DNA of 64,000 bases. Origin: an uncultured Lewinella sp. (GTDB lineage Bacteria > Bacteroidota > Bacteroidia > Chitinophagales > Saprospiraceae). The notes beneath the pieces are model-generated. The model had not been told where the DNA came from, searched no databases, and saw only the letters and a program-made list of their open reading frames with translations. The position numbers and the translations under genes were made by a program. Where the stretch lies: contig CAJXOS010000008.1 in the NCBI GenBank assembly GCA_913057725.1, positions 1 through 64,000 on the forward strand. The letters run 5' to 3'. Positions 22,452 to 24,659 of this stretch are shown piece after piece (the first letter of the stretch is position 1; every line of letters starts with the position of its first letter).

Positions 22452-22589
22452 AAATCGTACAAAAATAACCCAACGGCTATCATGTTGTCCTGACGGTATG
22501 AAAGAGTGCCGAGCGGGATTTCTAGGATTCAAGGAGGAAGACAAGCATTAGGCGTCGTAATTATACACCATCAGCGAGTTAGGGGGTAA

Positions 22590-22620
22590 TTGTATTTTTT
22601 ACAATAAGTTATTATATTTG
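22590..22620 (+). promoter_or_regulatory. Bacteroidota-type promoter (TTG - 20 nt - TATATTTG)
   Basis: TTG at 22590-22592 and TAnnTTTG match TATATTTG at 22613-22620. Confidence 0.6.
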
Positions 22621-22626
22621 TTAAAT

Positions 22627-22718
22627 CATATCGAAAGAGCGTTTCTCTTTCAACGATATAATTTGGTTTTATTTGGTTAGGGCTGAGGTAGTGCTGTGGT
22701 GGCGCTGCCTCTTTTTTT
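22627..22718 (+). ncRNA. candidate small RNA (~92 nt)
   Basis: Starts ~7 nt after TATATTTG; 5' hairpin ATATCGAAAGAG-CGTTT-CTCTTT-CAA-CGATAT (22628-22659); U/G-rich linker; ends in hairpin plus T7. Confidence 0.6.
22685..22718 (+). terminator. Rho-independent terminator 1
   Basis: GAGGTAGTGC-TGTGGTG-GCGCTGCCTC + TTTTTTT; two G-U pairs only possible on the + strand. Confidence 0.8.
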
Positions 22719-22721
22719 AGC

Positions 22722-22766
22722 ACGGAGCCGCTTATGCTGTCAAGCTTAAGCGGCTCCGTTTTTTAT
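22722..22766 (+). terminator. Rho-independent terminator 2 (tandem)
   Basis: ACGGAGCCGCTTA ... TAAGCGGCTCCGT perfect 13-bp stem + TTTTTTA. Confidence 0.85.
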
Positions 22767-22800
22767 TAACCTTCTATCAGAAAGGAGATAAAATGGGAAA

Positions 22801-22829: not shown

Positions 22830-22850
22830 TCATGAGATTATAATTGGCAT

Positions 22851-22885
22851 AAAAAAACCGGACACTAAGGGGAAGTGCCCGGTTT
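22851..22885 (-). terminator. Rho-independent terminator (minus strand)
   Basis: Minus strand: AAACCGGGCACT-TCCCCTT-AGTGTCCGGTTT + T-run; the single non-Watson-Crick pair is G-U on the minus strand but A-C on the plus strand. Confidence 0.78.
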
Positions 22886-23000
22886 GGTACCCTAAAACTC
22901 AGATGTCCCGTCTTCACGGATCATCCTAAAAAACCGTGTAATCTTCAGGATCCTGTGATCCCGTTTTTCATGTGAATCTGATTTCCTTAATCCTTAATAA
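22851..23000 (-). ncRNA. candidate minus-strand noncoding transcript / repeat-like element
   Basis: TATCTTTG (TAnnTTTG) at 23013-23006 upstream, strong terminator at 22851, no convincing ORF between. Confidence 0.4.
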
Positions 23001-23249
23001 CAATTCAAAGATAGGTGGCTATTGGAGCCTGTACTAGGTCGAAAAGTGCTCATTTGTTGTTGGTTATTTTTGGTATAAAATGACTTAGTATTTGTTTAAG
23101 TATCTGTTTATTAATTGATTGAGTAAAATATATTTTCTCGTTTTTCATATAGTTTTTATTGTTTTGTGTGCCTACACTTGCCTTTTTCGTGTGCTTTTCG
23201 TCGAAATTTTTGGGGTTTTACTTGACAATTATCGATCCAGCCCTTATTT

Positions 23250-23885: not shown

Positions 23886-24659
23886 ATGAACAAACCACTT
23901 ATCCAAATGATACACAAGAAAATTCATCTAACCTTATTAGTACTGCTACTTAGCCTTGGCGCAGTACTAGCTCAAGATGCCAGCGAGATTATTCGCCAGG
24001 CAGAAGATAAACTCCGTGGTTCTAGCAGCTTCAGCGAATTGAAGATGACGGTAGTACGGCCAGATTGGTCACGGGAAGTAAGCATGAAGAGCTGGGCAGT
24101 AGGCCGCGATTATTCCCTCATCCTGATTACAGGGCCGGCACGTGATAAAGGCGTTGCTTTTCTTAAGCGCGAACGCGAAATCTGGAACTGGCAGCCGACC
24201 ATCGACCGGACCATCAAAATGCCACCGAGCATGATGATGCAAAGCTGGATGGGTTCTGACTTTACCAATGATGACTTGGTGCGAGAGTCTTCTATCCTAC
24301 GCGATTACGAGCACGAGCTCGTAGGCGAAGAAGTAGTGGACGGACGTAACTGTTGGAAGATTAAGCTAGTACCCAAACCGGAAGCAGCGGTAGTGTGGGG
24401 AGAAATCTTCATGTGGGTAGACCAGGCAGAATACCTCCAGTTGAAAACTGAGTTCTATGATGAGGATGCTTATTTGGTGAATACCATGCTGGGCAAAAAT
24501 ATTAAAGACATGGGTGGCAAACTCCTGCCGTCGATCATGGAAATTATTCCTGCAGAAGAGGAAGGACACAAGACAGTCTTGGAGTACCTGACACTCGACT
24601 TTGATATCGATGTCAAGGACAGCTTCTTCTCCATACAGAATATGAAACGTGTGCGCTAA
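23886..24659 (+). CDS. outer membrane lipoprotein-sorting protein (LolA-like fold)
   Basis: Signal peptide; DASEIIRQAEDKLRG...; MKSWAVGRDYSLILITGPARDKGVAFL; WNWQPTIDRTIKMPPSMMMQSWMGSDFTNDDLV. Confidence 0.85.
   Translation: MNKPLIQMIHKKIHLTLLVLLLSLGAVLAQDASEIIRQAEDKLRGSSSFSELKMTVVRPDWSREVSMKSWAVGRDYSLILITGPARDKGVAFLKREREIWNWQPTIDRTIKMPPSMMMQSWMGSDFTNDDLVRESSILRDYEHELVGEEVVDGRNCWKIKLVPKPEAAVVWGEIFMWVDQAEYLQLKTEFYDEDAYLVNTMLGKNIKDMGGKLLPSIMEIIPAEEEGHKTVLEYLTLDFDIDVKDSFFSIQNMKRVR

Follow-up and report, generated by a model that had tools for sequence, protein, structure and literature searches.

The intergenic region beside a divergently transcribed gene for an M28-family peptidase (Pfam PF04389; 20913-22307, - strand) raises the question of whether it encodes a stand-alone regulatory RNA and, if so, which genes such an RNA would act upon. 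It lies in a 64,000-nucleotide stretch of DNA from an uncultured Lewinella sp., hereafter the window. The original prediction had placed a promoter, a 5' hairpin and a terminator here without any ORF to explain them, and all of these elements hold. No ORF accounting for the locus was found on the + strand, the sole overlapping one being a 50-aa ORF with a GTG start on the - strand, and a 151-nt stretch reaches a folding energy of -63.2 kcal/mol (z = -7.8), a value that none of 200 shuffles equalled. The promoter (22586-22620, + strand) consists of a TTG at 22590-22592, 20 nt and TATATTTG at 22613-22620, belongs to the block conserved in relatives, and contains an inverted repeat, ATTGTA-N5-TACAAT (22589-22605, + strand). 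The predicted sRNA of approximately 93 nt (22626-22718, + strand) would start at the position set by this promoter and end at the first terminator, in agreement with the conserved stretch. It opens with a hairpin with a 3-nt bulge (22628-22659, + strand) and closes with intrinsic terminator 1 (22685-22718, + strand), a 10-bp stem and loop with arms GAGGTAGTGC/GCGCTGCCTC at 22685-22711, followed by T7. The stretch in between, originally taken for a U/G-rich linker, is indeed present, but is no mere linker: aligned with its relatives it turns out to be a near-invariant seed, AATTTGGTTTTATTTGGTTAGGGCTGAGG (= AAUUUGGUUUUAUUUGGUUAGGGCUGAGG; 22660-22688, + strand), and the core of the molecule, whose complement recurs at the start sites of the genes discussed below. 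The seed contains two UUUGGUU repeats, and its final nucleotides double as the 5' arm of the terminator 1 stem.

The sRNA is conserved throughout the family, here meaning Saprospiraceae and relatives. With at most three mismatches allowed, its motif TTTGGTTTTATTTGGTTAGGGCTGAGGT was found in 122 of 247 genomes of the family, representing 62 of 113 genera, and almost every such genome has a single copy; the reversed motif gave zero matches in any listed genome. At least 117 contigs of public genomes carry the exact 21-mer, with titles that nearly all name Saprospiraceae, Lewinella, Neolewinella, Phaeodactylibacter or other Bacteroidetes; the cultured relatives Phaeodactylibacter xiamenensis and Neolewinella persica are among the carriers. 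An order-wide motif search remained confined to the family, bar one weak match, and a covariance model added the sRNA in at least seven further family genomes; this model also matched elsewhere in the class, where the matches inspected were ordinary terminators at gene ends and were rejected as homologs. DNA searches of relatives returned strong matches family-wide, with 92-100% identity over 22658-22718 in many different genera. In an alignment of 55 distinct sequences, the seed region holds 22 invariant columns, and the near-invariant pairing region spans 23-29 nt. Compensatory changes, proposed beforehand as a check, are found in the stem of terminator 1, where 98.4% of cells are paired and 8 of 10 pairs show two-sided changes (0/500 shuffles). 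A weak G.U-rich hairpin, which closes part of the seed in the minimum free energy model of the window's own RNA, was set aside as improbable: its variants break pairs (15 broken cells, no two-sided change), and comparative counts lend it no support.

A search of Rfam 15, the other check proposed, gave no family matching the locus at gathering thresholds; at relaxed thresholds nothing came near them (best sub-threshold match 26.1 bits versus 50), so that a known Rfam family is rejected. The M28 gene lies divergent from the sRNA in 94 of 133 loci, and the gene downstream varies. Together, the conserved promoter, the covarying terminator, the conserved position divergent from the M28 gene and the lack of an Rfam match support the idea of a stand-alone regulatory RNA. 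Having a promoter and an intrinsic terminator to itself, the locus is built like the stand-alone gene of a trans-acting sRNA, and by sequence it would represent a new family of this known kind, the trans-acting base-pairing sRNAs. Paralogous sRNA-like copies were seen at three further loci, L210 (G137), L202 (G161) and L203 (G230), in which the seed is followed by an unrelated GC-rich terminator; the latter two lie 3' of a gene for a PhaC-like alpha/beta hydrolase.

The region upstream of the seed is conserved in a different manner. Of 136 loci, 87 have a TAnnTTTG element 25-75 nt 5' of the seed (versus 5% expected), and in 58 of those 87 a TTG lies 17-22 nt ahead of it; the promoter is conserved and, judging from these elements, of the sigma-ABfr type. 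The 5' hairpin region has z ≤ -1.5 in 44 of 87 loci, and the hairpin, variable in sequence across species, is apparently conserved solely as a folding tendency. Within the genus of the window, close relatives of the promoter inverted repeat (window 22586-22609) also occur near pyk/acpP and gap (L206-L208, L212). The repeat may thus be a general promoter feature, or else the site of a shared regulator.

Terminator 2 (22722-22765, + strand) has a 13-bp stem and a 12-nt loop (stem-loop 22722-22759) and, as predicted, a T tail, yet it does not belong to the family-wide conserved RNA. The conserved homology stops earlier, at approximately 22718-22722, and terminator 2 therefore seems to be a local addition; only 8 of 132 loci have a further terminator within 70 nt. 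In the genus of the window, three of four species (L001, L002, L003) have one, with differing stem sequences, and it may serve as a backup terminator of the genus, its conservation apparently not reaching further. It had also been proposed to insulate the sRNA against a converging transcript. Insulation is unlikely as a general function, since the complete genome G001 has a second terminator while its converging element lies elsewhere in the genome. The converging element of the window (22840-23020, - strand) is another intergenic element that possesses a terminator (22885-22855, - strand). It is conserved only in the three other species of the same genus, at 77-90% identity, and in G001 it is located near the ortholog of the window's gene at 23886, far from the sRNA. 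It is possibly a second, genus-level RNA.

What would the sRNA act upon? Searching for the seed complement led to start codons, with sites at the AUG or just 5' of it in catabolic genes: hppD, in which the site AACCAAATAAAACCAAATT of G225 is a perfect complement of 19 nt directly 5' of the ATG, that of G021 an extended match (CCTCAGCC..AACCAAATAAAACCA) and that of the window's genus GCCTCAGTCCTAACCAACCAAAATC; genes for acyl-CoA dehydrogenase (G005 and the window's own genome), 3-hydroxybutyryl-CoA dehydrogenase (the window's own genome), tyrosine phenol-lyase (G004), alanine dehydrogenase (G021) and P5C dehydrogenase (G161); paaG (G019); and, in G152, the E1 subunit of a 2-oxoacid dehydrogenase together with hppD. 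One further site precedes an ammonium transporter gene (G158). Enzyme names of the target genes were checked by profiles; for the E1 protein these point to 2-oxoacid dehydrogenase E1 at large, the assignment to branched-chain substrates being our inference. The best sites end at a median of 3 nt 5' of the AUG, and their pairing takes in most of the seed, GGGCUGAGG among it. This reach of the pairing into GGGCUGAGG would account for a terminator 5' arm whose sequence is conserved along with its pairing. A seed complement was also observed at L201 (G149, 1503-1530), 65 nt ahead of the ATG in the 5' region of a gene for a paaE-like reductase, within an imperfectly flanked inverted repeat (GGTATCAAGCT ... 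AGCTTGATACC).

Start regions of three ortholog sets (hppD, acyl-CoA dehydrogenase and E1) from 38 sRNA-bearing genomes were then compared with the seed, using 200 dinucleotide-shuffled seeds as the null. Mean pairing energies were -21.3 kcal/mol for acyl-CoA dehydrogenase (versus -14.3 for shuffled seeds), -19.7 for E1 (versus -15.5) and -19.2 for hppD (versus -14.4), and in no set did any of the 200 shuffles reach so low a mean; control start sites (n = 529) had a mean of -14.3 kcal/mol. With the discovery genera left out, z was still -8.6 for acyl-CoA dehydrogenase, -5.4 for hppD and -4.5 for E1, compared with -0.4 to -1.7 for eight groups of control orthologs taken from these genomes. The seed is therefore not only conserved and accessible, but complementary beyond chance to the start regions of several unlinked genes. 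Not every ortholog carries a site: energies of -22 kcal/mol or lower were reached at 6 of 28 hppD and 10 of 26 acyl-CoA dehydrogenase start sites. One case counts against the pairing, as in genus g3 the seed has changed from U to C at one position, a change that the acyl-CoA dehydrogenase site has not followed. Of the exact 14-mer complements that have an ATG after them, 15 of 27 fall at a gene start in sRNA-bearing genomes versus 3 of 22 where the sRNA was undetected (p = 0.0026), in a 2x2 table tallied by hand that serves as an indirect control for sRNA-lacking genomes.

An energy scan of G001, covering 2 Mb chosen to include the three known targets, gave 48 strong sites at -22 kcal/mol versus 28 for shuffled seeds (maximum 51). 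Being barely above the shuffles, this total means that target lists drawn from energy alone hold many false positives; the scan is too weak by itself, and we take it as supporting evidence only. Its best intergenic matches are largely catabolic (hppD, hmgA-like, E1, an E2 subunit and acyl-CoA dehydrogenases, together with thiolase, CoA transferase, 3-hydroxybutyryl-CoA dehydrogenase, acyl-CoA carboxylase and gcvT), several of these names having been assigned by eye from the protein sequence. Computationally, the locus combines family-wide conservation, a promoter, a covarying terminator and an invariant seed with preferential seed complementarity at the start sites of three ortholog sets.

Since complements of the seed sit at the start sites of genes for amino-acid and fatty-acid breakdown, the sRNA probably shuts off their translation. 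We consider it probable that the locus encodes a stand-alone, trans-acting sRNA of approximately 93 nt that blocks translation initiation on mRNAs of amino-acid and acyl-CoA catabolism; its expression, its pairing in the cell, its repressive effect and its purpose are all read from genome comparisons. The sRNA would be transcribed by the housekeeping sigma factor up to terminator 1, and its single-stranded, GU-rich seed UUUGGUUUUAUUUGGUUAGGGCUGAGG would pair with the CA-rich element CCUCAGYCCUAACCAAAUAAAACC, or parts of it, across or just 5' of the start codon of these mRNAs. The phylum uses little Shine-Dalgarno pairing, and a seed covering the start stretch would block the binding of ribosomes. 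The catabolic pathways would then be repressed for as long as the sRNA is made, so that amino acids might be spared when other substrates are available.

The tandem arrangement of UUUGGUU within the near-invariant block could instead point to an RNA that mainly binds a protein, for instance of the RRM (Rbp) type, or acts as a sponge, the start-site matches being secondary. Bacteroides sRNAs are indeed bound by RbpB (PMC11697453), and sense copies of the motif occur between apparent rhaD-type and rhaI-type genes in G023, G226 and G261 (L197, L198, L199). We nevertheless judge this explanation unlikely, because specific catabolic start sites carry the complement and not the sense motif, the complementarity extends past UUUGGUU into GGGCUGAGG, and the z-scores of the targets stand far above those of control genes. 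The sense copies at L197-L199, each with a hairpin behind it that lacks a T tail, stand just before the start codon of the second gene and might constitute either a sponge or an internal RNA.

It is quite improbable that AACCAAATAAAACC-like stretches before start codons are an independent translation enhancer or another mRNA signal that the sRNA matches by coincidence. Start regions of the phylum are A-rich, CA-rich elements do enhance translation in GcvB targets (PMC3879156), and the genome-wide excess of sites is modest; yet seeds shuffled with their composition preserved never equalled the real one on the three target sets, control ortholog groups showed no excess, matches reach at least 19 nt in coherent pathways, and the enrichment at gene starts is seen only in sRNA-bearing genomes. 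The idea that the element is a leader or attenuator acting in cis on a neighbouring gene hardly deserves credence: terminator hairpins also occur in 5' leaders and the position beside the M28 gene is conserved, but that gene is divergent and, with a start-site pairing of z = -0.4, is rejected as a target as well, while on the other side the next gene of the window begins approximately 550 bp away and the downstream genes vary, on which ground a leader for these is rejected.

The base-pairing sRNA thus preferred resembles known systems without belonging to them. The R1 region of GcvB is unstructured and GU-rich and pairs with CA-rich elements within or close to the start regions of numerous amino-acid metabolism mRNAs, most of which are thereby repressed (PMC3879156). 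The Saprospiraceae sRNA shares with this RNA of enteric bacteria the conserved, unpaired GU-rich seed facing CA-rich start-site elements, although it belongs to another phylum, lacks any match to the Rfam GcvB model or relation in sequence, and has catabolic enzymes as predicted targets where GcvB has mainly transporters. GcvB is also about twice as long. By analogy, the sRNA would work like GcvB while not being a member of its family. Within the phylum, FopS of Bacteroides thetaiotaomicron combines a seed with an intrinsic terminator and blocks translation by pairing near the start codon (PMC11697453). FopS/GibS and the sRNA described here have in common a sigma-ABfr promoter and a single-stranded seed followed by an intrinsic terminator. 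FopS, however, is a multicopy family with a seed at the 5' end that targets susC of polysaccharide loci, whereas our sRNA, nearly always present in one copy, has a different, internal seed and predicted catabolic targets; it matches no Rfam model of FopS/GibS. Rfp18 of Flavobacterium, another conserved sRNA from environmental Bacteroidota for which base-pairing targets are predicted (PMC9723704), is set apart by its description: its third stem-loop does the pairing, and its effect is on metalloproteases.

In Bacteroidota other than Bacteroides and Flavobacterium, few base-pairing sRNAs are understood, and none from Saprospiraceae was found in the literature searched. We lean, with some reserve, towards a broader reading, in which a master sRNA, shared by Saprospiraceae-type bacteria across the family, coordinates amino-acid and acyl-CoA catabolism as a whole through one invariant seed, covering tyrosine, phenylacetate, branched-chain, proline, alanine and short-chain acyl-CoA steps, as a convergent counterpart of GcvB. 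If this is true, target sites would be gained and lost from lineage to lineage while the seed stays fixed, and two unrelated RNAs would have converged on one logic, in which a GU-rich seed faces start sites rich in C and A in amino-acid metabolism. With its deep conservation and readable regulon, the sRNA would make post-transcriptional control directly testable in a large environmental family.
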